Of a DNA stretch of 64,000 bases, positions 6,436 through 53,163 are shown piece after piece. This stretch comes from Dietzia aurantiaca. GTDB lineage: Bacteria > Actinomycetota > Actinomycetes > Mycobacteriales > Mycobacteriaceae. A program made the position numbers and the translations under genes. Positions within the stretch are counted from its first letter, which is position 1. The number at the start of each line of letters is the position of its first letter. Below the pieces are notes generated by a model, which made no database searches, was not told where the DNA came from, and saw only the letters and a program-made list of their open reading frames with translations. Location: NCBI RefSeq assembly GCF_021033825.1, contig NZ_JAIFXZ010000004.1, forward strand, positions 106,833 to 170,832, written 5' to 3'.

Positions 6436-6460
6436 GCCGGATGACCGCAGGACCTGAATA

Positions 6461-7594: not shown

Positions 7595-7612
7595 GCTAGG
7601 GCACCGGGTCCG

Positions 7613-8584: not shown

Positions 8585-8946
8585 CGAAGGAACTTGCGCA
8601 GATCCCCCAGCGCGGCGATCACGCGGTCGAGGTCGTCACCGTTGCGGACCATCGAGCGGACCGTCTCGGCGACCGAGGCGACGGTCGGCGAGGACGGAGC
8701 CCCGGACGCGGCGCCCGGCTCGGCGGTGGGCTCCACGAGCGCGCGGGAGGCGGCGCGGGCTGCCCCGGGGCGACGACGATCCGGGCCCAGCTCGATCTCG
8801 AACCGGTCGCCCTTGTCGTCGGACCCGAGGCAGCGGACGCGCTCGTCGGCGGGCACTCCCGCGGCGCGGACGGCGTCGACGAACTCGTACAGCTCGCCGT
8901 AGGTGACCCCGTCGAGGGTGAGGGTGAGGTTCATCGTGACTGGCAT
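8581..8946 (-). CDS. Hypothetical protein coupled to the EEP-fold gene
   Basis: Not recognised. It encodes 121 residues (start ATG 8946; ATG 8934 is also possible). The N-terminal part, LDGVTYGELYEFVDAVRAAG, looks like a small alpha/beta domain ending in DRFEIELGPD. A low-complexity Ala/Pro/Ser stretch follows (about residues 58-88) and then a helical tail. The 4-bp overlap with the following membrane phosphoesterase gene argues that it is translated and functionally linked. Confidence 0.6.
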   Translation of the reverse strand: MPVTMNLTLTLDGVTYGELYEFVDAVRAAGVPADERVRCLGSDDKGDRFEIELGPDRRRPGAARAASRALVEPTAEPGAASGAPSSPTVASVAETVRSMVRNGDDLDRVIAALGDLRKFLR

Positions 8947-9028
8947 GGGCCCAGGTTATCGCCGTTGGTGCCAACGGCGCATCGGTGAAGACCCCGGGGT
9001 CGACCCTGATCTCACGCGGCGCGGCTCG

Positions 9029-12112: not shown

Positions 12113-12140
12113 GCCGACACCTCGGTCGCCCGACCGCCGG

Positions 12141-13481: not shown

Positions 13482-13699
13482 GCCGTCCAACCTAGTGCCT
13501 GCCGCATTACGTCCGTGTGACATCCCGCCCTGCGCCGCCGAGCCGTCGCCCACGACACGCGGCGCGCCGTGCCGGTCCGGGCCGTGGCAGACTCGTCCGC
13601 GACGCCGCGCGGCCCCGGCCGCGCACGTCACCGCCCCCTATCCGCCCGGGGACCGGCGTACGACCGGCCTCGAGGTCACCCAAGGAAGGCCATACCGCC

Positions 13700-14563
13700 A
13701 TGAGCGACAACCCCGACACCCCCGTCTACGGATCCGGCGCCGCGTCGGACACCGAGCAGCAGGGTCTGACCCGGGTCACCCGCATCCACCACCTCGCCGA
13801 GCTCAAGGCCGCCGGCGAGCCCTGGCCGATGCTCACCGCGTACGACTTCGTCTCGGCCCGTCTCTTCCAGGAGGCCGGGATCCCGGTCCTGCTGGTCGGC
13901 GACTCCGCCGCCAATGTCGTCTACGGCTACGACACCACCGTCCCCGTCACCGAGGACGAGATGATCCCGCTGGTGCGGGCCGTGACCCGCGGCGCCCCCA
14001 GGGCGCTGGTCGTGGCCGACCTGGTCTTCGGCTCCTACGAGGGCTCACCCGAAATGGCGGTCGCCGCCGCCACGCGCATGATGAAGGAGGGCGGTGCGCA
14101 GGCGGTCAAGCTCGAGGGCGGCGTGCGCATGGCCCCGCAGATCCGGGCGATCGTCGACGCCGGTATCCCCGTGATGGCCCACATCGGCTTCACGCCGCAG
14201 TCCGTCAACGGGCTCGGCGGCTTCCGCGTCCAGGGCCGGGGTGACGCCGCCGACGAGCTCCGGGCCGACGCACGCGCGGTTCAGGAGGCCGGGGCGTTCT
14301 CCGTGGTGATGGAGATGGTGCCGGCCGACATCGCCAAGGAGGTCTCCGATGAGCTGGAGATCGCCACCGTCGGCATCGGTGCCGGCAACGGGTGCGACGC
14401 CCAGGTGCTGGTCTGGCAGGACATGGCCGGTCACGGGACCGGGCGCACCGCGAAGTTCGTCAAGCAGTACGCACAGCTGGCGGACAGCCTGCGCGACGCC
14501 GCCCGCGAGTACGGCACCGAGGTGCGCTCGCGCGCGTTCCCCGGCCCGGAGCACTCCTTCTGA
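13700..14563 (+). CDS. panB: 3-methyl-2-oxobutanoate hydroxymethyltransferase PanB
   Basis: First committed step of pantothenate (CoA) synthesis: transfers a hydroxymethyl group from methylene-tetrahydrofolate to ketoisovalerate to give ketopantoate. 287 residues. Visible motifs are [18 protein letters not shown], the metal-binding [44 protein letters not shown], the [18 protein letters not shown] loop and the [19 protein letters not shown] segment. ATG 13700 follows an AAGGAAGG box. An Ala/Asp leader of about 20 residues precedes the conserved core. The stop overlaps the ATG of the next gene (TGATG), so the two are translationally coupled. Confidence 0.95.
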
Positions 14564-15591
14564 TGACGGCCGACGGGGCCGCCACGCGCGACGGGGGAAC
14601 CCTGCGCCGCGCGCCGTATCCGGAGATCGAACCCCACGAGTCCGGGACGCTCGAGGTGGGCGACGGACAGCGGCTGTACTGGGAGTGCTCCGGCACCCCG
14701 GACGGCACGCCGGTGGTGTTCGTTCACGGCGGTCCCGGCGGCGGCACCACCCCCGCCCACCGGCGGATGTTCGACCCGTCCGTCTACCGGATCATCCTCG
14801 TGGACCAGCGTGGCTGCGGCCGCAGCACCCCGCATGTCGCCGACGGCGCCGACCTCGCGGTCAACACGACCTGGCACCTGGTGGGCGACCTCGAGCGCCT
14901 CCGCGAGCATCTCGGGGTCGGGCAGTGGATGCTCTTCGGCGGGTCGTGGGGGTCGACGCTCGCGCTGGCCTACGCCCAGGAGCACCCCGACAGGGTCCGC
15001 GGTCTGGTGCTGCGCGGGATCTTCCTGTGCCGACCGTCGGAGATCGACTGGTTCTACCGTGGCGGTGCGGCGCACCTGTTCCCTGACGTGTGGGAGGGCT
15101 ACCTGGCGCCTCTGATCGCCGCCGATGGCGTCGACGCCGTCCACCGGCCCGGGTACGACCACGTGGCGGCCTACCACCGGCTCATGCACTGCGGCGACCC
15201 CGCGACCGAGCTCGAGGCGGCCCGCGCGTGGACCACGTGGGAGACATCCACGTCGGCGCTGCTGCCCCGCACCCCTGCCGGCGACGGCGTCGGGACCGGT
15301 GATCAGGATCGGTTCGCCCTGGCGTTCGCCCGGATCGAGAACCACTACTTCGTCCATGACGCCTTCCTCGACGGCGCCGCGATCCTGGACCGGATGGACC
15401 GGATCGCCCACCTGCCGGCGGTGATCGTGCACGGCCGCTACGACGTGGTGTGCCCGGTCGCGAACGCGTGGGAACTACACGCGGCCTGGCCGGGCTCCGA
15501 GCTGCACATCGTGCCCGACGCCGGACACGCCATGGCCGAGCCCGGCATCACGCATCAGCTGCTCGAGGCCACGGACGCCTTCCGCCCCTGA
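14563..15591 (+). CDS. pip: Prolyl aminopeptidase (proline iminopeptidase), alpha/beta hydrolase
   Basis: Cytosolic serine peptidase releasing N-terminal proline from peptides. 342 residues, normal for the monomeric family. It has the oxyanion-hole motif VFVHGGPGGGTTP (about residues 48-60), the DQRGCGRSTPH stretch, the nucleophile elbow FGGSWGSTLALAYA, and late Asp and His residues (HGRYDVVCPV and DAGHAMAEP) completing the triad. A lid with the ENHYF motif typical of proline iminopeptidases lies between. It begins one base inside the panB stop. There is no obvious metabolic link to panB beyond co-transcription. Confidence 0.92.
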   Translation: MTADGAATRDGGTLRRAPYPEIEPHESGTLEVGDGQRLYWECSGTPDGTPVVFVHGGPGGGTTPAHRRMFDPSVYRIILVDQRGCGRSTPHVADGADLAVNTTWHLVGDLERLREHLGVGQWMLFGGSWGSTLALAYAQEHPDRVRGLVLRGIFLCRPSEIDWFYRGGAAHLFPDVWEGYLAPLIAADGVDAVHRPGYDHVAAYHRLMHCGDPATELEAARAWTTWETSTSALLPRTPAGDGVGTGDQDRFALAFARIENHYFVHDAFLDGAAILDRMDRIAHLPAVIVHGRYDVVCPVANAWELHAAWPGSELHIVPDAGHAMAEPGITHQLLEATDAFRP

Positions 15592-15612
15592 ACCCGGCGG
15601 GCCGGTCAGCCG

Positions 15613-16500
15613 TCAGAGCACACCGAACCGGCGGGACATGGCCACCGTGCCCCGCTGGTACGCGGACGGGAACAACCGGACCAGGGCGTCGATGAGGTGC
15701 GCGTCCGGACCCACGAGGATCCGGGCCCGCCGCCGCTCGACGCCGTCGAGGATCACCCTCGCGGCCGTCGAGGCCTCGGTGCGGGCGAACTTCTCGTCGA
15801 AGATCGAGGCGAAGCCCGCGCTGTCGAGCCCCTCGGCGGCGCCGGCGTTGCGGGCCACCGCGGTCTTGATCCCGCCGGGATGGACGCAGCTGACGTCGAC
15901 GGGATGCCCGTCGGCGAGCATCTCCATCCGCAATGACTCCGTGAACTGCTGTACTGCCGCCTTGGCGGCGTTGTAGGCGTTCTGGGTGGGCACGGACAGG
16001 ATCGCGAAGATGCTGGAGACGTTGGCCAGGTGACCGTCGCCGGAGGCGACGAGGTGGGGCAGGAACTCCTTTGTGCCGTGGACGACGCCCCAGTAGTCCA
16101 CGTCCATGACGCGGGCGATGTCCTTGTACCCGGATTGGCTGACCCGCCCGGTGAACGCGATGCCGGCGTTGTTGATCACCAGGTTCACCACACCGAAATG
16201 CTCGACGACCTGCCCCGCGTACTCGGCGACCATGGCCTGCTCGGTCACGTCGAGGCGCTGGGAGTGCACGTCGGTGGCACCGTCGGTGCGGACCATCGCG
16301 ACGGTCTCTGCCAGGCCGTCGACGTCGATGTCGCTCAGCGCCAACCGCGCGCCGCGGCGGGCGGCCTCGCGTGCGAGCTCGCGGCCGATCCCTGATCCGG
16401 CCCCGGTGACGACGACGACCTTGCCGTCCATCCGCCAGCGGGATCGGCGGCCAGTCAGCCCGCCTATCGTCTCGGTCATCCTGGCGATCATGCCGCTCAT
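15613..16500 (-). CDS. SDR-family short-chain dehydrogenase/reductase
   Basis: NAD(P)-dependent oxidoreductase with a Rossmann fold. The cofactor motif TGAGSGIG (about residues 32-39) follows a 25-residue basic leader. NNAG, the catalytic Ser in VSSIF and the YNAAK active-site pair are all present, then the HPGGIKT loop. 295 residues. The start ATG 16500 overlaps the stop of the upstream monooxygenase gene (ATGA). Such SDR/monooxygenase pairs often act in ketone, alcohol or steroid breakdown, for example oxidising an alcohol to the ketone that the monooxygenase then attacks. The substrate is unknown. Confidence 0.88.
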   Translation of the reverse strand: MSGMIARMTETIGGLTGRRSRWRMDGKVVVVTGAGSGIGRELAREAARRGARLALSDIDVDGLAETVAMVRTDGATDVHSQRLDVTEQAMVAEYAGQVVEHFGVVNLVINNAGIAFTGRVSQSGYKDIARVMDVDYWGVVHGTKEFLPHLVASGDGHLANVSSIFAILSVPTQNAYNAAKAAVQQFTESLRMEMLADGHPVDVSCVHPGGIKTAVARNAGAAEGLDSAGFASIFDEKFARTEASTAARVILDGVERRRARILVGPDAHLIDALVRLFPSAYQRGTVAMSRRFGVL

Positions 16501-18002
16501 GCCCGGGCCTCCTGTCGGGTGTGCTGCGCCGCCGCGCCGGCAGGAGTGCGGCGGTACGCGCTGAGATCGAACTCGCGCGTCTCATTACGGAAGGAGAAGG
16601 TGAAATCGGGCCACACGGCGGGGGCGTTGCCCTTGTCGTCGAGGTACCAGCTCCGACAGCCGGTCGTCCACACGGTGTCGCCCGTCGAGGTCCGGAGTTC
16701 GCTGTTGTAGGCGTCCTGGACCACCTCGCGGACGTCGACGGTCTGCAGGTTCCGCTCCCGCATCGTGCGCAGCGCGTCCGCGAGGTAGTTCAGCTGGGAC
16801 TCGATCATGTAGATCATCGACGAGTGCCCCAGGCCCGTCGCCGGGCCCACCAGGACGAACAGGTTGGGATAGCCGGACACTGTCGTGCCCTTGTACGCCT
16901 CCATCCCGTCTGCGGCCCACTTGTCGGCGAGAGTCCGGCCATCGGTGCCACGGACCCGTTCGAAGAACGGCGAGTCGGTGACGTGGAAGCCGGTGGCCAC
17001 CACCAGCACGTCCGCGGGGTGCTCGACACCGTCGGCGGTGGTGATGCCGCTGCTGGTCACCCGCGTGATGGGCGAGGTCACCAGATCGACGTTGTCTCTG
17101 GTGAGCGTCGGGTACCAGGTGTTGGACAGCAGGATCCGCTTGCAGCCGATCTCGAAGCGCGGCGTGACCTTCTCGCGCAGGCTCCGGTCCCGCACCTGCA
17201 TCGCGAGGTGCGCACGTCCGATCGCCCGGATCGGCGCCAGCGCCGCGCGGCTGCGGGTCAGGCCGACGACCTGGAACTCGCGGCTGACGTACTGCAGGGT
17301 CCGCATGACGCGCTGCAGGCCGGGGATCCTCCGGTACGCCTTCCTCTCGATCTGCGGATACGTCCGGTCCATCCGCGGCAGGACCCACGGCGCGGTGCGC
17401 TGATAGACGTCCAGATGCGACACGGTGGGGGCGATGGACGGCACCACCTGGATCGCCGAGGCCCCGGTACCGATGACCGCGACCCGCTTACCCGCCAGCG
17501 GCACCGAGTGGTCCCAGCGGGCGGTGTGGAAGACCTGTCCGGCGAAATCGCCGATGCCCTCGATCTCCGGCCGCTTGGGCTCGCACAGTGCGCCGACCCC
17601 CAGCACCACCACGCGGGCGTCGTAGGTGCCCTCGCTGGATTCGACGGTCCACCGGCCGCGGGCCTCGTCGAAGTCGACGGCGGTCACCTCCACGCCGAAG
17701 TGGATCTTGTCGCGGACACCGGCCTCGTGGGTGACCCGACGGATGTAGTCGTATATCTCCCCCTGTGGCGAGAACGCCCGCGACCAGTCCGGATTGAGGG
17801 CGAAGGAGTACGAGTACAGGTGCGACGGGACATCACATGCCGCACCGGGATAACTGTTGTCGCGCCACGTGCCGCCGACGTCCGTTCCCCGTTCGAGGAC
17901 GACGAGATCGTCGAATCCGTCCTGCGTGAGCCGGATGGCTGCGCCGAGCCCTGAGAACCCGGCGCCCACCACGAGCACATCGACGGTCCTGACCTGTTCC
18001 AC
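16497..18002 (-). CDS. Flavin-dependent Baeyer-Villiger-type monooxygenase
   Basis: Uses FAD and NADPH to insert oxygen next to a carbonyl. The 501-residue protein has the FAD site VLVVGAGFSGLGAAI (about residues 7-21) and the Baeyer-Villiger fingerprint FAGQVFHTARWD, with every fixed position matched. A second Rossmann motif VIGTGASAIQ and the later VVATGFHVTDSPFF region are also present. GTG 18002 is preferred because a GGGGGG run lies 4 nt upstream; ATG 18023 lacks a Shine-Dalgarno. It is the first gene of a two-gene operon with the SDR at 15613-16500. A palindromic operator candidate lies about 100 bp upstream. Substrate unknown. Confidence 0.88.
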   Translation of the reverse strand: MEQVRTVDVLVVGAGFSGLGAAIRLTQDGFDDLVVLERGTDVGGTWRDNSYPGAACDVPSHLYSYSFALNPDWSRAFSPQGEIYDYIRRVTHEAGVRDKIHFGVEVTAVDFDEARGRWTVESSEGTYDARVVVLGVGALCEPKRPEIEGIGDFAGQVFHTARWDHSVPLAGKRVAVIGTGASAIQVVPSIAPTVSHLDVYQRTAPWVLPRMDRTYPQIERKAYRRIPGLQRVMRTLQYVSREFQVVGLTRSRAALAPIRAIGRAHLAMQVRDRSLREKVTPRFEIGCKRILLSNTWYPTLTRDNVDLVTSPITRVTSSGITTADGVEHPADVLVVATGFHVTDSPFFERVRGTDGRTLADKWAADGMEAYKGTTVSGYPNLFVLVGPATGLGHSSMIYMIESQLNYLADALRTMRERNLQTVDVREVVQDAYNSELRTSTGDTVWTTGCRSWYLDDKGNAPAVWPDFTFSFRNETREFDLSAYRRTPAGAAAQHTRQEARA

Positions 18003-18103
18003 TTGACCCCCCAGAGACGACATCAGACTGCAGACCCCGGCCGACCGCCTGCACACTGTTCAGCATGTGACCAGTGCCACGCGAGCCCGGGGCCACGTCA
18101 GAC

Positions 18104-18119
18104 CTTACTCCCAAGTAAG
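18104..18119. promoter_or_regulatory. Palindromic operator candidate between monooxygenase and CYTH/CHAD genes
   Basis: CTTACT-CCCA-AGTAAG is a perfect 6+6 bp palindrome in the 173-bp divergent region. Size and AT-rich arms resemble TetR-family operators, which often control monooxygenase/SDR operons. No regulator gene is adjacent. Confidence 0.5.
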
Positions 18120-18175
18120 TCCGTGCAGGGGTGAAGGGACCTGCGGCGTTAACCCGGTGCTGGTACAACCAGATC

Positions 18176-19807
18176 ATGGCGATCAGCGAGACCGTTGAGG
18201 TGGAGAGCAAGTTCGAGGTCGGGGCGGACGATCCGGCCCCCTCGGCCGAGGCCTTCGCGCCCCTGGCCACGGACGATCCGGTGGAGCATCAACTGTCGGC
18301 CACCTACTACGACACGGCAGACCTGTCACTGACCCGCCACAAGGTGACGCTGCGACGCCGCACCGGTGGCGACGACGCGGGCTGGCATCTCAAGCTGCCC
18401 GGCCGCGATGGCCGGCTCGAGCTGCAGGCCCCGCTCCGGGACGAGGTCCCGACCGAGTTCGTCGACGCCGTCGCCGGGCTCGTGCGCCGACGGGAACTGT
18501 CGCCCATCGCCCGGATCGACAACCAGCGCCGGGTCACCCTCCTGCGCGATGCCGACGGGACGGCGGTCGTGGAGTTCTGTGACGATCGGGTGACCACCGA
18601 GTCGTTCGTGGCCGGTGGCTCCGCATCCGGATGGCGGGAGTGGGAGGCCGAACTCGTCGATCCGACCCTGCCCCACTCCGGGGACGCCCTGGCCGCGGTC
18701 GCCGCGGCATGCATTTCCGCGGGGGCGCAGGCTTCGTCGTCGTCGTCGAAACTCGCCCGCGCCGTGGGCCCGGTCCCCGAGGCGTGGGACCGCGGCGTCT
18801 CCCCCGTCCGCGACGCGCTCGGCGAGGACCTCCGGCAACTCCTCGACCACGACCCGGCCGCGCGGCGCGTAACCATGACCGGCGTGCACCAGATGCGCGT
18901 CGCCGTGCGCGGGCTGCGCAGCACCATAGGCTCGTACGCCACCGAACTCGAAGCCGAGACCGCCGGAAGCGATGTGGACCTGGCCGCGCTGCTCGAGGAG
19001 CTCAAGGTGCTCGCCGCCGTGCTGGGCAAGGTGCGCGACATCCAGGTGGTCGACCAACGGCTCGGGACGATCGCCGCCGAATACCCGGAGGACGTCGTGA
19101 CCCTACAGACGCGTCAGCGGCTCCGGTCCGAGTTCGACGCCGAGGAGAAACGGGCGGGCGAGCGCGTCACCGCGGCGCTGCTCTCCGACAGGTACCTGGA
19201 CCTGCTCGACACCCTCCACGAACTCATGCGCGTGGCCGGCACCGAACCCGTCCCCGGACAGCCCGGCGAGGAGCGCTTCCCGGCCGAGGCGGGCAAAAGG
19301 CAGCGGCGCGAGGCCGAGGAGATGGTCCTGCGCGGTGTCGACCGGCAGTTCGCGAAGTTCTCGAAAACCCGCACCCGGACCGAGCGCGACCTGGCCTCGC
19401 TCGACCTCAGTCTGGCGCAGCGTGAGGAACTGACCCACGTGGTGCGCAAGCGCGCCAAGGCGTTACGGCGCAACGTCGGCTCGCTACCAGACAGGGACGG
19501 ATTGAACGTGGCGCCCCTGCGGACCGCGTGCCAGCGGCTTCATACCGTACTGGGCGAGGTCCAGGACAGCGTGACCGCCCGCCGGTGGATCCGTCGCATC
19601 GCGCGGAGGGCCGAGGCGGCCGGCGAGTCGACCTTCGGGTTCGGCGTGCTCTTCGAGCACGAGCGCGGATTCTCCGAGCGCACTCTCGCCGGGTTCGAGA
19701 ACGACGCGGCCACGGTCACCGCCGCCTACCGCGAACTGTCCGAATCGCGGCGTGCGGTGCGGCGCAAGAAGAGCAAGGGCGGCAAGAGGTCGCGGAAGAA
19801 GGACTGA
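18176..19807 (+). CDS. CYTH and CHAD domain protein (polyphosphate/triphosphate-related)
   Basis: A fusion of a CYTH triphosphate-tunnel domain and a CHAD helical domain. The N-terminus carries the ExExK signature (VEVESKF, about residues 7-13), with further tunnel-lining residues in KVTLRRRTGG, WHLKLPG and EWEAELVD. From about residue 220 the CHAD domain follows, rich in conserved His and Arg (GVHQMRVAVRGLRST, KVRDIQV, RKRAKALRRNVG, LGEVQDSV). CYTH enzymes hydrolyse inorganic triphosphate or related compounds and CHAD domains bind polyphosphate, so a role in polyphosphate metabolism is likely but unproven. The extreme C-terminus is a Lys/Arg tail. ATG 18176, 543 residues; mycobacteria have the same gene near panB. 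Confidence 0.9.
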   Translation: MAISETVEVESKFEVGADDPAPSAEAFAPLATDDPVEHQLSATYYDTADLSLTRHKVTLRRRTGGDDAGWHLKLPGRDGRLELQAPLRDEVPTEFVDAVAGLVRRRELSPIARIDNQRRVTLLRDADGTAVVEFCDDRVTTESFVAGGSASGWREWEAELVDPTLPHSGDALAAVAAACISAGAQASSSSSKLARAVGPVPEAWDRGVSPVRDALGEDLRQLLDHDPAARRVTMTGVHQMRVAVRGLRSTIGSYATELEAETAGSDVDLAALLEELKVLAAVLGKVRDIQVVDQRLGTIAAEYPEDVVTLQTRQRLRSEFDAEEKRAGERVTAALLSDRYLDLLDTLHELMRVAGTEPVPGQPGEERFPAEAGKRQRREAEEMVLRGVDRQFAKFSKTRTRTERDLASLDLSLAQREELTHVVRKRAKALRRNVGSLPDRDGLNVAPLRTACQRLHTVLGEVQDSVTARRWIRRIARRAEAAGESTFGFGVLFEHERGFSERTLAGFENDAATVTAAYRELSESRRAVRRKKSKGGKRSRKKD

Positions 19808-21220: not shown

Positions 21221-21229
21221 CATGTGTTG

Positions 21230-21655
<426 letters not shown>

Positions 21656-46013: not shown

Positions 46014-46048
46014 GCTCCCCCAATTGGACTCGAACCAATAACCCTTCG
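46014..46048 (-). repeat. attL, 3' half-copy of tRNA-Asn
   Basis: 35 bp identical to 53090-53124. Starts GCTCCCCCAATTGGACTCG and covers discriminator, acceptor 3' strand, T-arm, variable loop and the edge of the anticodon stem. The 5' half of the tRNA is absent here. Confidence 0.95.
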
Positions 46049-46340
46049 TTACAACGTCATTCGTGGTCGAGGTTCCCATTCTGTACTTTTCTACACGTTT
46101 ACCAGCGCGAACACTCCCTCGGTCATTCGGTGGCATTGCGCCGGATTGTGGCGGATACGGCCCAAAAGGGCGGATAAACGCCCGATCCGGCAGATTGGAA
46201 CCGGCCACCTCGCGCGCGGCGTTTCGACAAAGCACAACACCCCCCACACCGCGATGGTGTGAGGGGTGCTGCCGTGCCAGCAGCGAGAGGGACACGGCAT
46301 CCCGTCGCGCCCGAGAAGTACGACGAGGGGTTCTTTGGGC
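46049..46340. other. Left end of the element: attachment arm region, no gene
   Basis: 292 bp without a credible gene. It holds two copies of a GGCGGATA motif (46150-46157 and 46169-46176, the second reading GGCGGATAAA) that recurs next to the right end, and the operon terminator at 46238-46268. Confidence 0.6.
46238..46268 (-). terminator. Terminator of the element's leftward operon
   Basis: 13-bp stem with one mismatch (46238-46250 with 46256-46268), loop GCGAT, about 70 bp past the last leftward gene. Confidence 0.7.
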
Positions 46341-47009
46341 CTATGCGGCGAGGTCGGCCACGGCGGGGACCACGCCCGTGATACTCATGGCGGCGTGGGA
46401 CCACTCACCGGGCGGCGGCGTGTGCGGATCATCGAGCAGACCACGCATGTAGGAGAGCTTCTCCCGCGCGATAGATAGGGCGGCACCTGCGGCCCCGGCA
46501 GTCTTCGCGGCTGCCGCGTAGTCGGGGTTGCGGTCCCGGAGCGCGGTCTCAACGATCTGTGCCCCGGCGTTGGCACGGTCTCCGCCGATTGCCTCGTGAT
46601 GGTCGTTGATGTGCTCCAGCAGGAACGGCAACTCGGCGTCGTCGGCGGTGGCGATCAGGTCCAGCAGCGGCCCGGTGCCTCCCGCGTTGAGGGCGGCCTC
46701 AATCCGCTTCATGCGCCGATTCATGCGCATCTCCTGGGCGAGCGCCGCATCCCCGGTGGGCAGGGTCGTCATCGTGGCGCGGGCGGCGTCGGCCTTGGCC
46801 TGTGCGCCTTCGAGGGCGGAAGTGATGCCGGTGGCGATCTGGTCGAACTGCTCGTTCCACTTACGGTCCTTGCCCCAGTTCCGGTGCCTGTTGACGCGGC
46901 CCTCCGGGGTTAGATCGCCGTCGGTGGTGACCATGTGGGCGGTGGCGCGGATGTCGGCCTCCAGCCGGGTCATGTCGGCCTCAAGCGTGGTGATGGTCTT
47001 CTTGGTCAT
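46341..47009 (-). CDS. Element protein of unknown function, largely helical
   Basis: 222 residues, not recognised. The first 30 residues and residues 60-120 look like coiled coil (TTLEADMTRLEADIRATAHM; EMRMNRRMKRIEAALNAGG). The remainder is Ala-rich helix, with HINDHHEAIGG in the middle. No signal peptide, membrane helix or Cys cluster. ATG 47009 overlaps the stop of the HTH gene upstream (ATGA), so the two are made together. In phage satellites the gene beside the small terminase often affects packaging or capsid size; that is only a guess from position. Confidence 0.7.
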   Translation of the reverse strand: MTKKTITTLEADMTRLEADIRATAHMVTTDGDLTPEGRVNRHRNWGKDRKWNEQFDQIATGITSALEGAQAKADAARATMTTLPTGDAALAQEMRMNRRMKRIEAALNAGGTGPLLDLIATADDAELPFLLEHINDHHEAIGGDRANAGAQIVETALRDRNPDYAAAAKTAGAAGAALSIAREKLSYMRGLLDDPHTPPPGEWSHAAMSITGVVPAVADLAA

Positions 47010-47494
47010 GCTGCGTCTCCTATGTCGTCGGTGGTGGTCTGGCCTTGGTCGTCTAATCCCGCTTTGAGTGCGGCGTGCCAGTTGTTGAACCCGGCACGCA
47101 TCGTGTCGAGCAGGGATTCTGGGCTGTTCTCGTCGGCGTCGAGACGGTCCGCGAGAGTCGAAAGTTTGTCCGCGCTGGTGCCCGCGGCATTAACAAGAGC
47201 GCGGATCACGTTGTGGTCGATCTCGTCCGCGTCGAGGGCTTGAAGTAGTCGCTCCGCCGCCCGATCCGCGATGTCGGAGAAGTCCTCCGCAAGCTCTGCA
47301 CGGCGGTCGATCATGCGTGCCCTGGTTGCCGCTGCGGTGCCCGCACGAGACCAGTCGACCCCGGCATCCCGCGCCAACTTGTCGACCTGACGACGAGAGA
47401 CACCGAGTTCGCGGGCGCACGCATTTCTCCCGTACCCCTGTTCGGACAGCTCTCGCACACGCGCGGGCGCGGGTCCGGCACGCCGCCCGCTCAT
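47006..47494 (-). CDS. HTH protein, possible small terminase subunit
   Basis: 162 residues. The N-terminal 45 residues form a helix-turn-helix (RVRELSEQGYGRNACARELG and VSRRQVDKLARDAG). The rest is helical, with a coiled-coil-like centre (AELAEDFSDIADRAAERLLQ) and an acidic tail. This layout, an N-terminal HTH followed by an oligomerising helical part, is that of small terminase subunits and of some resolvase-like HTH proteins. No catalytic serine recombinase domain is present. ATG 47494 overlaps the previous stop; it is the penultimate gene of the leftward operon. Confidence 0.7.
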   Translation of the reverse strand: MSGRRAGPAPARVRELSEQGYGRNACARELGVSRRQVDKLARDAGVDWSRAGTAAATRARMIDRRAELAEDFSDIADRAAERLLQALDADEIDHNVIRALVNAAGTSADKLSTLADRLDADENSPESLLDTMRAGFNNWHAALKAGLDDQGQTTTDDIGDAA

Positions 47495-47700
47495 TCGTCC
47501 TCCAGGTCGGCGATGTCGTCGGGGATGTCGGTGAGTTCGACGATGCGTTCCCGGACGGCTTCGAGGGTTCCCTCGGTGAAGGCGAGTTCGATGATGTCGT
47601 CCATCTTGTCCACCACGTCGGGGCAGAGTTTGATGGCGTCGACGATCTGGCGGATCGACTTGGCCCATGTGACGGGATCGGGGGTTGGGTGGTCGGTCAT
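47491..47700 (-). CDS. Small acidic element protein
   Basis: 69 residues, not recognised: starts MTDHPTPDPVTWAKSIRQIV and ends in an Asp/Glu-rich stretch (TDIPDDIADLEDE). Probably all helical. Overlaps both neighbours by 4 bp, the strongest argument that it is translated. Confidence 0.65.
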   Translation of the reverse strand: MTDHPTPDPVTWAKSIRQIVDAIKLCPDVVDKMDDIIELAFTEGTLEAVRERIVELTDIPDDIADLEDE

Positions 47701-47921
47701 GCGGCTGTCTCCTGCGTTTGGGCGTTGGGCGGGAACTTCCATCGCGGATCGATGGATGTGACGGCGGCGAACAGGAGCAGTCTCAGCTCGTCCTCGGGCA
47801 GTGCCCGGATGAGTCGTGCGGCACGTTGTGAGCGGGCGTCCACGAGTGCGTCGAGGGCGTCTTGCACGCGGCTGGACCGGGCGTTCAGCAGGGTCAGCTT
47901 TGGGGGTTTCTTCTGTGTCAT
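47697..47921 (-). CDS. Small element protein
   Basis: 74 residues, not recognised. Basic N-terminus (MTQKKPPKLTLLNARSSRVQ), then helical LRALPEDELRLLLFAAVTSI and a Pro/Gln tail. ATG 47921. Overlaps both neighbours by 4 bp. Confidence 0.65.
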   Translation of the reverse strand: MTQKKPPKLTLLNARSSRVQDALDALVDARSQRAARLIRALPEDELRLLLFAAVTSIDPRWKFPPNAQTQETAA

Positions 47922-48118
47922 GAGCCCTCCATCGGTGAGGGTTGCGCGGGTCGTCGTCCGACTTGGTAGAGGTTCCATATGTGCTTGTCGTGCCGTGCGA
48001 GGTGGACTACTCGGTCACCTCTGCGGACGTTGCATCTTTCGCCGGCCTGGGCGTGGCAGGTGGGGCACGAGAACGGCAGGGTGTCGGCGATGATCTGGGC
48101 GTCGTACGCGGTGGTCAT
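47918..48118 (-). CDS. Small zinc-finger-like element protein
   Basis: 66 residues. A probable zinc site is formed by CPTCHAQAGERCNVRRGD, followed by HLARHDKH. Small proteins with this CxxC-x(7)-C pattern are common in actinobacterial phages and may bind nucleic acid or a protein partner. ATG 48118 overlaps the replicase stop, so it is translationally coupled to the replicase. Confidence 0.7.
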   Translation of the reverse strand: MTTAYDAQIIADTLPFSCPTCHAQAGERCNVRRGDRVVHLARHDKHIWNLYQVGRRPAQPSPMEGS

Positions 48119-50088
48119 GCTGCGGCCTCCTGGGCGGTGGCGAGTTGGTACTTGGTTCCGTCGAGGGTGGCGATGCCTTCGGTGACGAACTGGTCGAGGA
48201 TGTCGTTCACCTGGTCGCGGTAGCGGGGGGACACAGACTGCGTGAGGACTCGGGCGTCCATGCCGTACGTGGCGGACAAGGCTCCGAGAACATCCCGTCG
48301 GGCGTCGTCGCGGGGTGCGGGGGCCGAAGATTCCGGCAAAGATGCCAAAGGTGCCTTCACACGTGTATGGGCATCTTTGGAATCTTTGGGCACCTTTGCC
48401 TCTTCGGGCACGGCCCCGTCGGTCGGCGCGTTGTCGATGGTCCACACCCAACCGACGCCGGTGCCGCCGGCCTTCTCGGTCTTGACGCCCATCTTTCGGC
48501 GGGCCTTCTTGACGGTGTTGTCGTCCAGTCCCGCGTCGCGGGTGGCCTTGAGGACTTCCTTGGCTGGGGCCGATCCCCCGTTCCTCTCCAGGTAGTCGAG
48601 GATGATCTTCTCGATCTCGGTGCGCTCGTCGCCGTCGATGGCGTCGCCTGCGAGGAAGTCTCGGGCGTCAGCCTTTACTTCTCCCAACCACTTGACCTTG
48701 CCGACTTCGGTGGGGCCGTCCTCGGTGTCGATGGTCTGGGACACGATGCGGGCGGCTTCGGAGCGGACACAGGTGGCGAGGTTGCCCTTGGTGTTCGTGA
48801 TGACCAACTGGTCTTGGTCCTCGTCCAGGGCGACGGACAAGACAGACCGGGCGACCTGAGACCAAGCGATTGAACCGAGGATCAACTTGCCGGAGTCCGC
48901 GCCGTCACGCTTGCCGAAGTGGACCAGCCCGAGGACGACCATCTTCTGTCGTGCCGCCATCTGTGCGAGAGGTTCGAGGAACTGCCGGACTTGCCGATCG
49001 TCCTTGCCGGACAGTTCTGACGACATGGAGCTCGTGGCCGCGTCCAGGACCATGAAGGTGACCCCGTACTGTGCGACGACCTGTTCCAGGGCAGCGTTAT
49101 CTAGGGGCAGGGTGATCGTGCCACTGTCGCTGGTCTCGGTTTCCACGTCCACGAAGATGACCTTCGACATGTCCGCGCCCGCTGCCTTGAGCCTAGGAGC
49201 GACGGTGTGTTCCCGACTGTCCTCGGTGTGGACGTACAGGACGTAGTTTCCCTTGATGGTCTCTTCTGCCGTCCACGCGACGGCGATGGTGGACTTGCCG
49301 AGTCCTTCTCGTCCTGCAAGGAGGGTGAGGGCGGATCGGGGAATCCAGTCAGGGATGAGCCATTCAATCTTGCGGGTCTTGACGTCATGCCCGAAGGTGA
49401 TCTTGAGGCGTCGCCCGGTGGACTTGGTCTCGATCTTTTGGAACTCGGTGATGGCGTGCCCTGCCGCGATGTGGTCGGCGGCATCCTTTCCGGTCTTGGC
49501 TGCCACGACGGTGATGCTGGCCGCGATGTTCTCCAGCTCGGCGGCAACCTGGGCGGCGTGCTTGTGTCCGGGCTGGTCGTCGTCGGCGACGATGGTGACG
49601 TGACGGTCCTGGAGCGGGGACCAGTCGCGCTTGTGGGCGGTGTTGGCTCCACCGGAGGTGACGGCGCACGCGCCGATGGATTCGAGGGCGTGTACGTCCT
49701 TCTCCCCCTCCACCACGAAGACTTGTAGGTCTTTATTCTCGGGCAGGTTTTCGACGCGGTACAGGGCGTTTCCGGCGGTGTTCCCGGCCTGCCTGAACCG
49801 CTTGTTCGGAGTCCGGTGGACCTTGCGCCCGTCGGCGTACTCATAGGTCACGCCCTGGGGGTTGTCGAACAGGTCGGCGGTGGTGAGATTGACGGACCCG
49901 AGGACATCCTCGGTGGCCTCGCCTGCGTGGCAGTGCATAAGTGCTTGGCCGTCGATCTGAGTGATGCTGACGGACTTGTCGGCTGGCGAGTGGCCGGGGG
50001 CTTGTGCGGACGCAGTGTTGGCACTGGTGTCTGTCCAGTTCAGTCCTGCCGCGTGCCAGGCGTCGCGTAGTCGGTCGATGGCGGTCAT
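48115..50088 (-). CDS. Replicase: TOPRIM and RecA-fold (AAA_25) primase-helicase
   Basis: 657 residues. The N-terminal part (about 1-95) precedes a TOPRIM domain with VVEGEKDVHALESIG and ADDDQPG, as in phage primases. A RecA-like ATPase follows: Walker A LAGREGLGKST (about residues 260-270), Walker B TFMVLDAATSS, and the VLGLVHFGKRDGADSGK loop. Winged-helix segments close the protein (ILDYLERNGGSAPAKEVLKA, and DQVNDILDQFVTEGIATLDG near the end). This is the phage-type replication initiator found in satellites and small plasmids, and would allow the element to replicate after excision. SD CAGGAG lies 6 nt before ATG 50088. The Cys zinc finger of true primases is not evident. Confidence 0.88.
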   Translation of the reverse strand: MTAIDRLRDAWHAAGLNWTDTSANTASAQAPGHSPADKSVSITQIDGQALMHCHAGEATEDVLGSVNLTTADLFDNPQGVTYEYADGRKVHRTPNKRFRQAGNTAGNALYRVENLPENKDLQVFVVEGEKDVHALESIGACAVTSGGANTAHKRDWSPLQDRHVTIVADDDQPGHKHAAQVAAELENIAASITVVAAKTGKDAADHIAAGHAITEFQKIETKSTGRRLKITFGHDVKTRKIEWLIPDWIPRSALTLLAGREGLGKSTIAVAWTAEETIKGNYVLYVHTEDSREHTVAPRLKAAGADMSKVIFVDVETETSDSGTITLPLDNAALEQVVAQYGVTFMVLDAATSSMSSELSGKDDRQVRQFLEPLAQMAARQKMVVLGLVHFGKRDGADSGKLILGSIAWSQVARSVLSVALDEDQDQLVITNTKGNLATCVRSEAARIVSQTIDTEDGPTEVGKVKWLGEVKADARDFLAGDAIDGDERTEIEKIILDYLERNGGSAPAKEVLKATRDAGLDDNTVKKARRKMGVKTEKAGGTGVGWVWTIDNAPTDGAVPEEAKVPKDSKDAHTRVKAPLASLPESSAPAPRDDARRDVLGALSATYGMDARVLTQSVSPRYRDQVNDILDQFVTEGIATLDGTKYQLATAQEAAA

Positions 50089-50143
50089 GTGGTCTCCTGA
50101 AACCCCGTGGCGAGTGCTAAACTGGCCACATTCGGTTGGTTTT

Positions 50144-50183
50144 AACGGACCCCTGGCTTGGCGGCGTGGGGGTCCGTTTTTTT
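50144..50183 (+). terminator. Strong plus-strand terminator with no plus-strand gene upstream
   Basis: 10-bp perfect stem (50144-50153 with 50169-50178), 15-nt loop and seven consecutive T (50177-50183) on the plus strand. All genes nearby are on the minus strand, so it may end an antisense RNA from the replicase leader. On the minus strand the hairpin is followed by TTAAAACC only. Confidence 0.75.
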
Positions 50184-50224
50184 GTGTTCATCGGGGCGGA
50201 CGCGGTGGGCGTCCTCGGGAGTGT

Positions 50225-50431
50225 TCAGGCGGCTGGGCGGATGTCGCCGATCAGCGCGTCTAGTTCGTCAAGATCGACCCACGTGATGCGGGCGTCTCTC
50301 GGGCTGCGGTAGCGGGTGAGGCTGCCGTCGCGCAGGCGGGCGAACAGCCAGTGTCGGGACTTCTGCGCGTAGGCTGCCGCCTCTACAGCAGAGGCGAACC
50401 GGGATGGCCCCGGCTGTGTCGTGGTCGTCAT
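50225..50431 (-). CDS. Small HTH (excisionase/AlpA-like) element protein
   Basis: 68 residues. AVEAAAYAQKSRHWLFARLRDG followed by ARITWVDLDELDALIGDI is a MerR/excisionase-like winged HTH. ATG 50431. It is a second DNA-binding protein besides the one at 50958-51152, sitting 137 bp upstream of the replicase gene and possibly acting on its promoter or origin. Confidence 0.72.
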   Translation of the reverse strand: MTTTTQPGPSRFASAVEAAAYAQKSRHWLFARLRDGSLTRYRSPRDARITWVDLDELDALIGDIRPAA

Positions 50432-50477
50432 GCAGGTGATGATCCCGCGACGGTCAGGGTCCGAGTCGCACACGAAA

Positions 50478-50678
50478 TTACGGTTCCGCGATGGTCTCGG
50501 CGATGGCGTCGAGGAACCGTTCCCGATCCCGTTCTGTCACGTGACTTCGGATCACCGCCACCCCCGTATCGAGTAAGTCGCGGTACTCCAGTTCAACCAG
50601 CCGGCGAGCCACCCCGACGGGTAGACCGTGCCGGTGGTGGACCTCCAGGGCGATGTCCTCCGTCGACTGCCACGTCAT
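50478..50678 (-). CDS. Small element protein
   Basis: 66 residues, start ATG 50678 overlapping the previous stop by one base. It reads MTWQSTEDIALEVHHRHGLP, then VGVARRLVELEYRDLLDTGV, and ends helical. No known family recognised. Confidence 0.6.
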   Translation of the reverse strand: MTWQSTEDIALEVHHRHGLPVGVARRLVELEYRDLLDTGVAVIRSHVTERDRERFLDAIAETIAEP

Positions 50679-50863
50679 CACGGCTCGCAAAGCAGTTCGC
50701 CTTGGAGGCATTCGCGCTCCAGTCGGGCTTTCCCGTACTTGAACGCCGCGTCGAGGAACTCCCACGCTTTCAGGTCGCCTTCGACGTACTCGCGCATGTC
50801 GTCGTGAAGATGCATCGCCGCGACGGACTCATCCCGGTACGCCTTGTTCAACTCGCGGTTCAT
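50678..50863 (-). CDS. Small element protein
   Basis: 61 residues, ATG 50863. Starts MNRELNKAYRDESVAAMHLH; acidic middle (DDMREYVEGDLKAWEFLDAA) and two cysteines near the C-terminus. Not recognised. Overlaps both neighbours, supporting translation. Confidence 0.6.
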   Translation of the reverse strand: MNRELNKAYRDESVAAMHLHDDMREYVEGDLKAWEFLDAAFKYGKARLERECLQGELLCEP

Positions 50864-50961
50864 GCCGCGCCTCCTTCACTCGTGGTTCCGGCCCCGAAGA
50901 ACACTTCGAGGAACTCTTCAGCGACCATGCCGGACTGCTGGATCAGGTCTGCTCCGGTCAC
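50860..50961 (-). CDS. Very small element ORF (33 residues)
   Basis: Reads VTGADLIQQSGMVAEEFLEV and continues FFGAGTTSEGGAA. GTG 50961 overlaps the previous stop (GTGA) and its own stop overlaps the next ATG, which is the only reason to call it. Could be a coupling relay rather than a functional peptide. Confidence 0.45.
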   Translation of the reverse strand: MTGADLIQQSGMVAEEFLEVFFGAGTTSEGGAA

Positions 50962-51152
50962 GCCGCGTCTCCCGTCTTGACGGTGTTGGCGTCCAGCCAG
51001 GCGTCGATGTCCTCGGCCCGGTACCGGATGAGCCGGCCCACCTTCACGTAGCTCGGCCCGATCCCCTTGTGCCGCCACTCTGCGAGGCGCTGGACGGTGA
51101 CGCCGAAGTCCTCGGCGACGGTCGGCGGGTCAAGTAGCCCCTTGCGATTCAT
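50958..51152 (-). CDS. Excisionase-type HTH protein
   Basis: 64 residues. LDPPTVAEDFGVTVQRLAEW and VGRLIRYRAEDIDAWLDAN are the two halves of a MerR/Xis-like winged HTH, as in recombination directionality factors. It is divergent from the repressor gene, with 98 bp between starts, so it is the first gene of the lytic-type leftward operon. Probably directs excision with the integrase and may also regulate. Confidence 0.82.
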   Translation of the reverse strand: MNRKGLLDPPTVAEDFGVTVQRLAEWRHKGIGPSYVKVGRLIRYRAEDIDAWLDANTVKTGDAA

Positions 51153-51182
51153 TGGACCTCCGTAGTTCGAGATATGCCCGTA

Positions 51183-51201
51183 TTGGACTGACTGAGTCCA
51201 A
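51183..51201. promoter_or_regulatory. Operator candidate in the repressor/excisionase switch
   Basis: TTGGACT-GACTG-AGTCCAA, a perfect 7+7 bp palindrome. A degenerate second copy (GTGGTC...GTCCAA, 51212-51230) lies closer to the repressor start. Both are in the 98-bp divergent promoter region. Confidence 0.75.
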
Positions 51202-51250
51202 CTGTATTACGGTGGTCAGTAGTTGTCCAACGTCTGCGAGAATTGGCCCC

Positions 51251-51832
51251 ATGAGTGACGGGGACACCGCGCGGGAATGGGCGACATCGATTTCCAACCG
51301 GATCGGAGAAGCCGTGAGACTACGAAGGCGGGAACTTGAACTCAGCGCACAAGATGTCGCTGATCGAACTGTGGAACTCGGGTACCCGATTACCCGCGCC
51401 ACCATCTCCAAGGTTGAGAACGGGAACCGGGGCGGGAAGATCGAGGTAGCAGAACTTCTCGTTCTGGCCCAGGCTCTCGAAACCTCCCCTACTGGACTTC
51501 TATGGCACGACATGCCGGATGGCGACGCCTGGTTTTTGCCAACCATTCGAGACACGGCAGGCCACGCCTACACGTGGTGGTCCGGCGGCGGCAAGCCCTA
51601 CGACAAGGACGGCAAGACGGTAGGCAATCGCCGGAGGTCAAGGGGTCACCTGAGGATGAGAACCCTCAATGAGTTGATGGACACCCGCGCCCTGCTAGAT
51701 GTTGCACAAGAACAGCGCACCGAACACCCCGAACGATTCGGGTACTTACTCACTCGCGTTGCCGAACTAGAGGAACGCGCCGCAGATGAAGGCTGGACGG
51801 TCAAGGGCTACGGGGAGCACGACGATGGCTAG
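51251..51832 (+). CDS. XRE-family repressor of the element
   Basis: 193 residues. The N-terminal HTH (RIGEAVRLRRRELELSAQDV, then RATISKVENGNRGGKIEVAE, about residues 18-75) is a Cro/C1-type domain. The remainder is not a RecA-cleavable LexA-like peptidase (no Ser-Lys dyad recognisable), so induction would not follow the classic SOS route; an antirepressor is more likely. It is co-transcribed with the integrase: its stop overlaps the integrase ATG by 8 bp. Faces the excisionase gene across the operator at 51183-51201. Confidence 0.85.
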   Translation: MSDGDTAREWATSISNRIGEAVRLRRRELELSAQDVADRTVELGYPITRATISKVENGNRGGKIEVAELLVLAQALETSPTGLLWHDMPDGDAWFLPTIRDTAGHAYTWWSGGGKPYDKDGKTVGNRRRSRGHLRMRTLNELMDTRALLDVAQEQRTEHPERFGYLLTRVAELEERAADEGWTVKGYGEHDDG

Positions 51833-53009
51833 GGCACGGCTGGAGGTGGGCGAGGTCCGCACCATCCGATACGAACGCATCGACCACAGGACTGTTCGCG
51901 CTCACAGTCGGGTCCGGGACTCGGGCGGGCGCGTGGTCAAGGTCCAGGCCGACGGCAAGAACAAGGACGAAGCGGAGACACGCCTACGGTCAGCCGCTCA
52001 CCGACGGGCATTCGGGGTAGCAGAAGGCATCGGCCCCTACACCCCGCTGTGGGTCGTCATCGAGGAATACATCACCGGCAAGATCGAGGCTGGAGAGATA
52101 GGGCCGACCACCGCCAACGCCTACCGAGGCGACCTCCAGCGCATCAAGGGCACACCGGATGATCCGAAACTCGGCAGGCTGGAACTCCAGGCCTGCACCC
52201 CGGTCGTCGTCCAAGGGTGGCTGAAACAGGAATCCAAGCGGGTACCGGCTGCCGCTAAGCGGATGAAGTCACTGTTGAACGGGGCGTTCGCTCTCGCCGA
52301 TGAACGTGGTGTTGACCTCCAGCGCCCAGACCCGGTGGGCAAGGTGAAACTGTCGCGGCCTAAACGGCCCACACCCCGCGCGGTGGGACTAGATGACCTC
52401 CAGGCTCTACGGGAGCGTGTACGGGCGTGGCAGGCCGGCGGAACAGGCAAGGGTGGCCGTCCCAGGTGGCAGCACATGTCCGATGCGGTAGATGTCATGC
52501 TCGGAACCGGCTGCCGACCAGGCGAACTGTTGGCGCTGCGTTGGGAGGACGTCGACCTCGCATCCGATAGGCCGACGGTCACGATCTGCGGCACGGTCGT
52601 CCGCACGCCGGAGAAGGGGTTGCACCGGCAGGGCTGGGGCAAGACGTCGAACTCGTACCGCACCATCACTGTCCCAGACTTCACCGTCGCGGCGCTAATG
52701 AACATGAGGGTCAACTCCCCCGGCAATGCGCGCGGCCTGGTGTTCACGTCGGCTACCGGTGGGCTGATCGAACTCAACAACTTCGGCAGGCGGTGGCGCG
52801 AGATTCGCGGCGACGAGTACTCGTGGGTGACTCCGCACTCGTTCCGCCGGACCGTGGCAACCATCATCGACCGCACGGCAGGGTCGGACATCGTGGCCGC
52901 TGTACTCGGCAACACCCCGGCAGTCGCTGAGGCTCACTACATCGAGAAGATGGCGGCGGTCGCGCCGGACATGACCGACACGTTGGACGAACTCGCGCCC
53001 GACCGATAA
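51825..53009 (+). CDS. Tyrosine integrase of the element
   Basis: 394 residues. An N-terminal arm-binding part is followed by a SAM-like core-binding domain (about residues 75-165) and the catalytic domain: Arg in GTGCRPGELLALRWEDVD, Lys in the beta-hairpin region, HSFRRT, and nucleophile Tyr in AEAHYIEKM. The usual second His/Trp (LGH) is Asn here (LGNTPA), a known variation. ATG 51825 overlaps the repressor stop. The gene ends about 80 bp from attR, next to repeats that may be its arm sites. Confidence 0.93.
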   Translation: MARARLEVGEVRTIRYERIDHRTVRAHSRVRDSGGRVVKVQADGKNKDEAETRLRSAAHRRAFGVAEGIGPYTPLWVVIEEYITGKIEAGEIGPTTANAYRGDLQRIKGTPDDPKLGRLELQACTPVVVQGWLKQESKRVPAAAKRMKSLLNGAFALADERGVDLQRPDPVGKVKLSRPKRPTPRAVGLDDLQALRERVRAWQAGGTGKGGRPRWQHMSDAVDVMLGTGCRPGELLALRWEDVDLASDRPTVTICGTVVRTPEKGLHRQGWGKTSNSYRTITVPDFTVAALMNMRVNSPGNARGLVFTSATGGLIELNNFGRRWREIRGDEYSWVTPHSFRRTVATIIDRTAGSDIVAAVLGNTPAVAEAHYIEKMAAVAPDMTDTLDELAPDR

Positions 53010-53030
53010 GGCGGATAAAGGTCGGATAAC
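53003..53030. repeat. Integrase arm-type repeats near the right end
   Basis: CCGATAAG, GGCGGATAAA and GTCGGATAAC stand in a row. The middle one is identical to the left-end copy at 46169-46178. Spacing and position near both att sites suit integrase or excisionase binding. Confidence 0.6.
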
Positions 53031-53040
53031 CCAACAATCA

Positions 53041-53084
53041 AAACACCCTCCCCCTGCGGACTACTTGCAGGTGGGAGGGTGTTT
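53041..53084. terminator. Terminator between integrase and tRNA-Asn
   Basis: 12-bp perfect arms (53041-53052 with 53073-53084). Ends the integrase transcript and, on the minus strand with a TTTT tail, replaces the original terminator of tRNA-Asn. Confidence 0.85.
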
Positions 53085-53089
53085 CTTAT

Positions 53090-53124
53090 GCTCCCCCAAT
53101 TGGACTCGAACCAATAACCCTTCG
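53090..53124 (-). repeat. attR, inside tRNA-Asn
   Basis: 35 bp identical to attL at 46014-46048. This copy keeps the tRNA whole, so insertion does not inactivate it. Confidence 0.95.
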
Positions 53125-53163
53125 ATTAACAGTCGAATGCTCTGCCAATTGAGCTATGGGGGA
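53091..53163 (-). tRNA. tRNA-Asn (anticodon GTT)
   Basis: Acceptor TCCCCCA pairing with TGGGGGA, D-arm AGCTCAATTGG, anticodon arm TTCGA-CTGTTAA-TCGAA, T-arm ATTGG-TTCGAGT-CCAAT, discriminator G. CCA not encoded. Integration site of the element; also located before dnaG in mycobacteria. Confidence 0.95.

Follow-up and report, generated by a model that had tools for sequence, protein, structure and literature searches.

Insertion site and gene content of the island

The 64,000 nt stretch of Dietzia aurantiaca DNA analysed here, referred to throughout as the window, contains at positions 46014–53124 a 7.1 kb island that lies at a tRNA-Asn gene and has the appearance of a minimal phage satellite carrying a homologue of a small terminase (TerS). 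The island is bounded by exact repeats of 35 bp (46014–46048 and 53090–53124), of which the window holds two copies, a pairing far beyond chance; no third exact copy was listed when the genome itself was searched with the tRNA region. The right copy corresponds to the 3′ 35 bases of the tRNA-Asn gene identified by ARAGORN (53090–53163, minus strand), which is the usual anatomy for a tyrosine integrase, and the G+C content of the island is 64.1 % against 69.3 % for the window. The features, from left to right, are as follows.

46014–46048, unstranded: left attachment (att) site, attL; 35 bp exact repeat, copy of the tRNA-Asn 3′ end
46341–47009, minus: last gene, 222 aa, overlapping terS by 4 bp and ending the leftward operon
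47006–47494, minus: helix-turn-helix (HTH) gene, 162 aa, TerS homologue (phrog_5536; hhalign; profile tests; synteny of phage members with the large terminase)
47491–47700, minus: late-block gene, 69 aa (71 % identity in D. aerolata)
47697–47921, minus: late-block gene, 74 aa (family F7), with relatives in other islands
47918–48118, minus: zinc-finger micro-protein, 66 aa (PF24623, 1e-8)
48115–50088, minus: replicase, 657 aa, Toprim primase-like plus AAA_25 RecA-like helicase (AAA_25, 3e-25; Toprim_2, 8e-6; phrog_239 primase/helicase, 2e-29)
50107–50129, minus: hairpin 2, or dyad, of the replication leader, right before the replicase start (7 of 9 pairs changed on both sides, four elements)
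50144–50178, minus: hairpin 1 of the replication leader, with a plus-strand run of T after it (shaped like a terminator of a transcript from the opposite strand)
50225–50431, minus: early gene, 68 aa, kept in three relatives (84, 90 and 66 %)
50478–50678, minus: early gene, 66 aa (87 % in Dietzia sp. NCCP-2495, 59 % in D. cercidiphylli)
50678–50863, minus: early gene, 61 aa (48–53 % identity, three relatives)
50860–50961, minus: micro-open reading frame, 33 aa, GTG start (similar peptide encoded in Dietzia sp. NCCP-2495)
50958–51152, minus: excisionase-type HTH_17 gene (xis), 64 aa (PF12728, 5e-9; phrog_66, 4e-9)
51183–51201, unstranded: palindrome TTGGACT-n5-AGTCCAA in the divergent repressor/xis gap, candidate operator by sequence reading
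51251–51832, plus: HTH master-repressor candidate, 193 aa, overlapping int (HTH_31, 1e-5; HTH_3, 1.5e-5)
51825–53009, plus: tyrosine integrase (int), 394 aa (PF00589, 4e-9; phrog_1, 5e-42)
53040–53086, unstranded: attR-end hairpin of a strong terminator type (−33 kcal/mol for each strand; z −7.6 and −6.4)
53090–53124, unstranded: right attachment site, attR; 35 bp repeat inside the intact tRNA-Asn gene (53090–53163, minus; ARAGORN)

The original prediction, made from the letters alone, had recognized the exact repeat bounding about 7.1 kb at tRNA-Asn, the rightward integrase and repressor, and the leftward series of an excisionase-type gene, micro-genes, a TOPRIM/RecA replicase and an HTH gene, and the Pfam and PHROG matches agree with these assignments, the HTH_31 match of the repressor (1e-5) being slightly below the family cut-off. 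The 222 aa last gene was absent from its gene list. It had also described the island as free of capsid, tail, portal, large-terminase, lysis and conjugation genes; no such family was matched at E ≤0.01 among the island proteins scanned (10 proteins each in Pfam, PHROGs, PADLOC and NCBIfam, and four more small ones in PHROGs). The 33 aa frame was without a PHROG match. PADLOC matches were either weak or to the Toprim/AAA parts of the replicase, for which reason no defence cargo is claimed. A promoter-like match running leftward (51229–51201) reaches the candidate operator with its second hexamer; the match is weak, in that 1 was found where 0.9 were expected.

An integrase, an excisionase and a replicase at a tRNA gene are also the layout of actinomycete integrative and conjugative elements (AICEs). 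The island might on this ground be taken for a mobilizable element or an AICE remnant (pSAM2-like) that moves by conjugation, yet among the proteins scanned in Pfam, PHROGs and NCBIfam no relaxase or Tra/FtsK-like translocase was matched, and the presence of a TerS homologue is also at odds with such an origin, which we regard as highly improbable.

The HTH gene and its phage relatives

The 162 aa HTH protein matched phrog_5536, a family annotated as of unknown function, at 1.9e-14 over residues 11–87, and the same family was matched at 2e-42 and 2e-50 by the TerS proteins of two prophage loci (L131 and L133). Its weaker PHROG match to a small-terminase family (0.043) was accompanied by one of the xis product (0.028). 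Members of the TerS family were present in 20 loci, in four of which (L131, L133, L134 and L138, all prophage late regions) a large terminase (TerL) gene lies directly downstream; the other 16 had no TerL of the accompanying family. The scanned neighbours in L131 are a large terminase, an SPP1-type portal, a minor capsid protein and a P22-type coat protein. In the phages Vondra and PSonyx the phrog_5536 member is gene 1, ahead of the terminase, and in Aleemily and Cafasso it is gene 2, ahead of the large terminase. When viral-contig loci were fetched with the L133 prophage TerS, a TerL frame adjoined in 58 of 60 (near-identical copies included): 32 by the script cut-off and 26 in which the TerL frame overlaps the TerS frame by at least 100 nt, an overlap that arises from comparing open frames and not starts; L205 and L206 had none.

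Alignment of four satellite with seven phage TerS sequences by hhalign gave a probability of 98.3 % (E 2e-14) over 84 N-terminal columns. As a control for HTH similarity, a profile of 66 phage-side TerS sequences (near-identical ones included) was run against 699 proteins. The whole profile found the window protein at 1.5e-20, with unrelated insertion sequence (IS)-type HTH proteins next at 1e-6. After removal of the HTH it still found the window protein at 1.2e-7, together with 19 others of the family (weakest 0.026), four of these 19 being members of the model; it lost one family member, that of L132, and nothing outside the family scored better than 0.25 among the 699 proteins. A PDB profile search with the phage TerS gave matches in or around the HTH region. 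On homology and synteny, then, the gene at 47006–47494 is best described as a TerS homologue, as the original prediction had guessed, the connection from satellite to phage TerS being made through the prophage homologues.

A profile of the TerL family that accompanies phrog_5536 had no match in the window, nor in any of 15 related loci; it found its own L131 and L133, and was blank also in three Dietzia prophage-like loci (L234, L235 and L237), so that the negative excludes that TerL family only. As no TerL of its family neighbours it in the window, the putative terS appears to stand alone, as in TerS-type phage-inducible chromosomal islands (PICIs).

The same gene would have another meaning if the island were a helper-independent integrative replicon, its HTH protein serving as a regulator or plasmid-type DNA-binding protein and not as a packaging factor. 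The island has a replicase of its own, with relatives in two Streptomyces plasmids at 28–30 % identity; the HTH protein has a weak match to a ParB-like family (phrog_2159, 0.0026), and the cognate TerL was not found in 23 Dietzia genomes. What renders this explanation unlikely is that the similarity of the HTH protein to the TerS family extends past the HTH, that phage members of its family adjoin TerL, and that in sister loci tape-measure and minor capsid genes lie near this gene.

Related islands and tRNA-Asn sites in Dietzia

The best relatives of the island were found in the same genus. Among 301 Mycobacteriaceae genomes, a replicase profile matched 78, many of them partially or weakly, and a TerS-type profile (A2) matched 42, many weakly; the last-gene profile (A3) matched six, five Dietzia and one weak, so that this gene is, among the genomes searched, almost exclusive to Dietzia islands. 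It gave no significant match in Pfam, PHROGs, NCBIfam, phage-record, viral-contig or PDB profile searches. Eight of the 23 Dietzia genomes (D. aurantiaca included) were matched by A2, seven at E ≤3e-25 and one (G150) at 8e-4. For five of those seven, the tRNA gene occupied by the island came into view, namely tRNA-Asn in D. aurantiaca and G190, tRNA-Arg in G055 and G218, and tRNA-Met in G003; it was out of view in G209 and G234.

Comparison of these islands indicates that integrases and replication genes have been swapped between them. The island of Dietzia sp. NCCP-2495 (L032; 7.2 kb, tRNA-Arg, repeats of 19 and 16 bp with one base between) shares with the window a replicase of 97 % and a last gene of 76 % identity, its integrase, repressor and TerS being 52, 40 and 37 % identical. 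That of D. aerolata Sj14aT (L082; 6.6 kb, tRNA-Asn, 39 bp repeats) has an integrase 96 % identical to that of the window and a different gene (called at 414 aa) in place of the replicase, and keeps the 74 aa, 69 aa, TerS and last genes at 84, 71, 45 and 35 %. A third replication gene (DUF3987, 2e-97) lies beside tRNA-Arg in the left part of an island in genome G218, D. cercidiphylli YIM 65002T (L242), of which a second contig (L125) holds a 74 aa-family gene, TerS and the last gene; we infer that the two belong to one island, as the chromosomal genes flanking L125 also flank the L032 island. The G003 island (L232) measures 13.9 kb, at tRNA-Met with 45 bp repeats, and the left portion of a related island, together with an att copy, was found in G209 (L083), its tRNA lying outside the stretch.

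Ratios of non-synonymous to synonymous substitution (dN/dS) were 0.10 for the replicase (window versus L032) and 0.08 for the integrase (window versus L082), and both genes are thus under purifying selection. For the other island genes the ratio ranged from 0.12 to 0.57, including, against L082, 0.49 for TerS and 0.55 for the last gene, values that are little informative at synonymous distances >1. Swapped modules together with ratios of 0.08–0.10 suggest exchange among functional elements rather than decay, and the island has the look of a mobile element that recurs, not that of a prophage remnant.

At the tRNA-Asn gene itself, which was readable in 20 of the 23 Dietzia genomes (not in G102, G180 and G209), island proteins were present in two, D. 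aurantiaca and G190. Five genomes (G055, G072, G200, G226 and G255) have the left-flank sequence of the window close behind tRNA-Asn and hence an empty site; the remaining 13 showed no island protein by tRNA-Asn in the stretch fetched (1.5 kb or less). Two of the empty sites (L059 in G200 and L069 in G255) bear the attR-side terminator of the island (53040–53086) at 94–97 % over 47–63 bp, and unrelated terminators occupy that position in the three other empty sites read. The shared terminator may have been left behind by a lost island, or it may be where the island's own terminator came from.

The search of related genomes for the gene block and for empty sites, which the original prediction had proposed, thus yielded modular islands at tRNA-Asn and tRNA-Arg and five empty sites, and the finding it had named as contrary, a longer prophage in relatives of which the block is a remnant, was seen at tRNA-Asn in none of the 20 readable genomes (short stretches, about 1.4 kb or less). 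It had allowed for either a satellite or a defective minimal element; the former part has gained support, and the latter is disfavoured. A degenerate prophage, reduced to its early region and terS by loss of structural genes, would account for the existence of phage relatives of the replicase and integrase and for terS belonging to a phage gene family. It would not be expected to recur as several elements of 6.6–7.2 kb with att repeats, at different tRNA genes and in different module combinations, nor to keep its integrase and replicase under purifying selection; the lack of a longer prophage at tRNA-Asn and of the last gene in phage records and in the viral-contig scan likewise speaks against it. 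We consider decay from a prophage distinctly improbable, more so than a helper-independent replicon and less so than a conjugative origin.

Proposed satellite lifestyle, possible helper phages and sister islands

We propose, with a probability of about 80 %, that the island is a minimal, PICI-like phage satellite of the TerS type, packaged by a helper phage, and that it probably spreads by riding in the particles of a bacterial virus. The PICI features used for comparison were taken from PMC6092414, in the portion of that text available, and the PICI-like gene order of the original prediction agrees with them. In common with the Staphylococcus aureus pathogenicity islands (SaPIs) and other TerS-type PICIs of Gram-positive cocci described there, the island has its own att site and integrase, int and repressor in one direction with xis and replication genes divergent, a fused primase-replicase and a distal terS, and is without structural or lytic genes, its 222 aa gene being of no known family (PMC6092414, in part). 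It shares these sequence-level features with PICIs but not the typical size, 7.1 kb compared with about 15 kb, a size given as typical and not obligatory in the same portion of PMC6092414. PICIs are characterized there also by att sites that prophages never use, by genes exclusive to PICIs, by induction and interference that depend on a phage, and by specific packaging in phage-like particles. As to the att site, elements of this kind occupied two of the 20 readable tRNA-Asn genes in Dietzia, and the short stretches fetched showed no prophage there. It differs from PICIs further in the phrog_5536 family of its TerS, in a last gene without known relative and in its host clade, the Mycobacteriaceae.

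On this comparison the island would work like a TerS-type PICI, and the following scheme is modelled on the SaPI-type mechanism as set out in the available part of PMC6092414. The HTH repressor encoded beside int would keep the chromosomal island silent in tRNA-Asn until infection by, or induction of, a helper phage lifted the repression and turned on the leftward operon of xis, early genes and replicase. Integrase and excisionase would then excise a circle, which the Toprim–AAA replicase would multiply. The late TerS would recognize a site in the satellite DNA and hand this DNA to the large terminase of the helper, so that it would be packed into helper-made particles and could re-integrate at the tRNA-Asn of the next cell. 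The 222 aa gene beside terS is a candidate packaging partner or a candidate for interference with the helper.

Other satellites share part of this design. The candidate PICIs of Mycobacterium, a genus of the same bacterial family in the GTDB sense, were defined by an integrase and a major capsid gene, and some of them resemble the island in having a tyrosine integrase, a tRNA gene as insertion site and a replication gene of helicase type (PMC10654092, as far as its text was available). A major capsid gene was matched in none of the island proteins scanned. The statement in the original prediction that few satellites are described in mycolate actinobacteria needs qualification in view of these capsid-bearing candidates, and it remains that the satellite lifestyle is little described in this bacterial group. 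The phage-inducible chromosomal minimalist islands (PICMIs) of Vibrionaceae resemble the island in minimal size (6.1 kb), int, an AlpA/HTH_17-type gene, a replication gene and the lack of capsid remodelling, and the DUF3987 replication gene of the D. cercidiphylli relative belongs to a family listed for them (PMC10803314, in part). They are inserted at fis and have DUF3987/DUF5906 primases, whereas the island lies at tRNA-Asn and encodes Toprim plus AAA_25; a DNA motif seems to suffice for their packaging, and the island has a TerS homologue (PMC10803314, in part). The word ‘terminase’ occurs 0 times in the text of that paper. MulchRoom and MiniFlayer of Streptomyces are likewise actinobacterial phage satellites but, unlike the island, encode a portal, a capsid and both the large and the small terminase, and have no primase (PMC10690885, in the part available). 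Literature listings, comprising titles and the starts of abstracts, returned no Dietzia satellite and no satellite with a tape-measure protein.

Several observations weigh against a helper-packaged satellite. The C-terminal part of a TerS is expected to contact TerL, and the hhalign match is restricted to its 84 N-terminal columns, the C-terminal part being weakly conserved; the TerS profile that includes the HTH also reaches IS-type HTH proteins. TerS is just 37–52 % identical between the window and its closest relatives, and the last gene is not in all relatives, L083 and L126 having another gene in its place. Pattern scans of viral contigs found no relatives of the replicase, last gene or satellite TerS, and tblastn found no match to the latter two in phage records. 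The TerL family accompanying this TerS was found in 0 of 23 Dietzia genomes, all four control genomes being positive. The D. aurantiaca genome itself has a phrog_2 match of only 1.8e-4, a strength common in most of the genus, and is not among the 6 of 23 Dietzia genomes with a PF05065 capsid match.

With regard to a helper, PF20441 was likewise matched in 0 of the 23 genomes, yet a weak member occurs in L234 (0.005), and phrog_2 was matched in 20 of 23, mostly weakly, with five at 4e-9 or better. Given the absence of that TerL family and of PF20441 and the mostly weak phrog_2 matches, it is likely that the helper is virulent or has another TerL. A helper candidate is L237, a region of G055 (the NCCP-2495 genome, home of the island's closest relative) whose layout, judged by eye, resembles that of the late genes of a prophage (phrog_2, 3.8e-9).

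The replicase and TerS searches also turned up sister islands with att repeats. TerS-type islands occur in other genera (L047, 5.8 kb, tRNA-Thr; L127, 6.8 kb, tRNA-Lys). Capsid-type islands comprise L039, L040, L044 and L045, which belong to other genera of the Mycobacteriaceae and contain relatives of the window replicase, and L084 of D. aerolata; the L084 capsid was scanned and those of the other four cluster with it. L084 (3875–12062) is a second satellite in the D. aerolata genome. It lies at tRNA-Thr and has a primase-like gene, a scaffold-like gene and a capsid gene of HK97 type (PF05065, 1.7e-18), and its replication gene is similar at the end to the C-terminus of the window replicase. 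Two further islands combine TerS with a tape-measure protein: L141 of another genus (5474–18522, 13.0 kb, tRNA-Leu) and L232 of Dietzia (4865–18729, 13.9 kb). The tape-measure assignments are firm (phrog_9228, 8e-144; phrog_10780, 8e-163), the proteins being 1198–1455 aa long in L141, L232 and L048; no TerL of the phrog_5536-accompanying family was present in these three loci, and no other structural match at 0.01 was obtained among the proteins scanned in L141 and L232 (three each). The same pairing of TerS with a tape-measure-like gene occurs in L048, L128 and L132, which are known here without att repeats. In L132, one gene (1267–3096, minus strand) joins a minor capsid protein 2 domain to one of ADP-ribosyltransferase type (PF06152 and PF03496).

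A further trait is common to the Dietzia islands. Between the 68 aa gene and the replication gene, a two-hairpin leader is present in the window, L032, L082 and L242, in front of three different replication genes. In an alignment of these four sequences, with the structure drawn from the window sequence, 90.8 % of pair cells were kept and 9 of 19 pairs were changed on both sides, a result that none of 500 shuffles and no slid version attained. Hairpin 1 (50144–50178) was not among the sites of a terminator-like scan. Hairpin 2 contains on the plus strand a TAnnnT motif, which we take to be an actinobacterial −10 form. The arrangement would be compatible with a short antisense RNA directed at the replication leader; alternatively, hairpin 2 is possibly an operator dyad. 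Elsewhere in the window, an ordinary RNase P RNA is located at 21228–21653 (RF00010, 264 bits).

More tentatively, and with the odds against it, the island could be the small form of an unrecognized mycolate satellite lineage built around one TerS family, which swaps integrases, replication genes and add-on virion parts and whose Dietzia members share two-hairpin control of replication, perhaps through an antisense RNA. Its sisters with TerS and a tape-measure protein may set tail length on hijacked helper particles; if so, they would be tail-remodelling satellites, compared with the capsid-remodelling ones already known.

A satellite of the TerS type in D. aurantiaca would give phrog_5536, now filed as of unknown function, a likely role as a small terminase. 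Selection by a capsid gene, as used for the published Mycobacterium candidates, would miss this kind of element (PMC10654092, in the part available). The island indicates that TerS-type satellites without capsid genes occur in the Mycobacteriaceae, here as a compact form in an environmental genus, and it draws attention to sister islands with a tape-measure protein.

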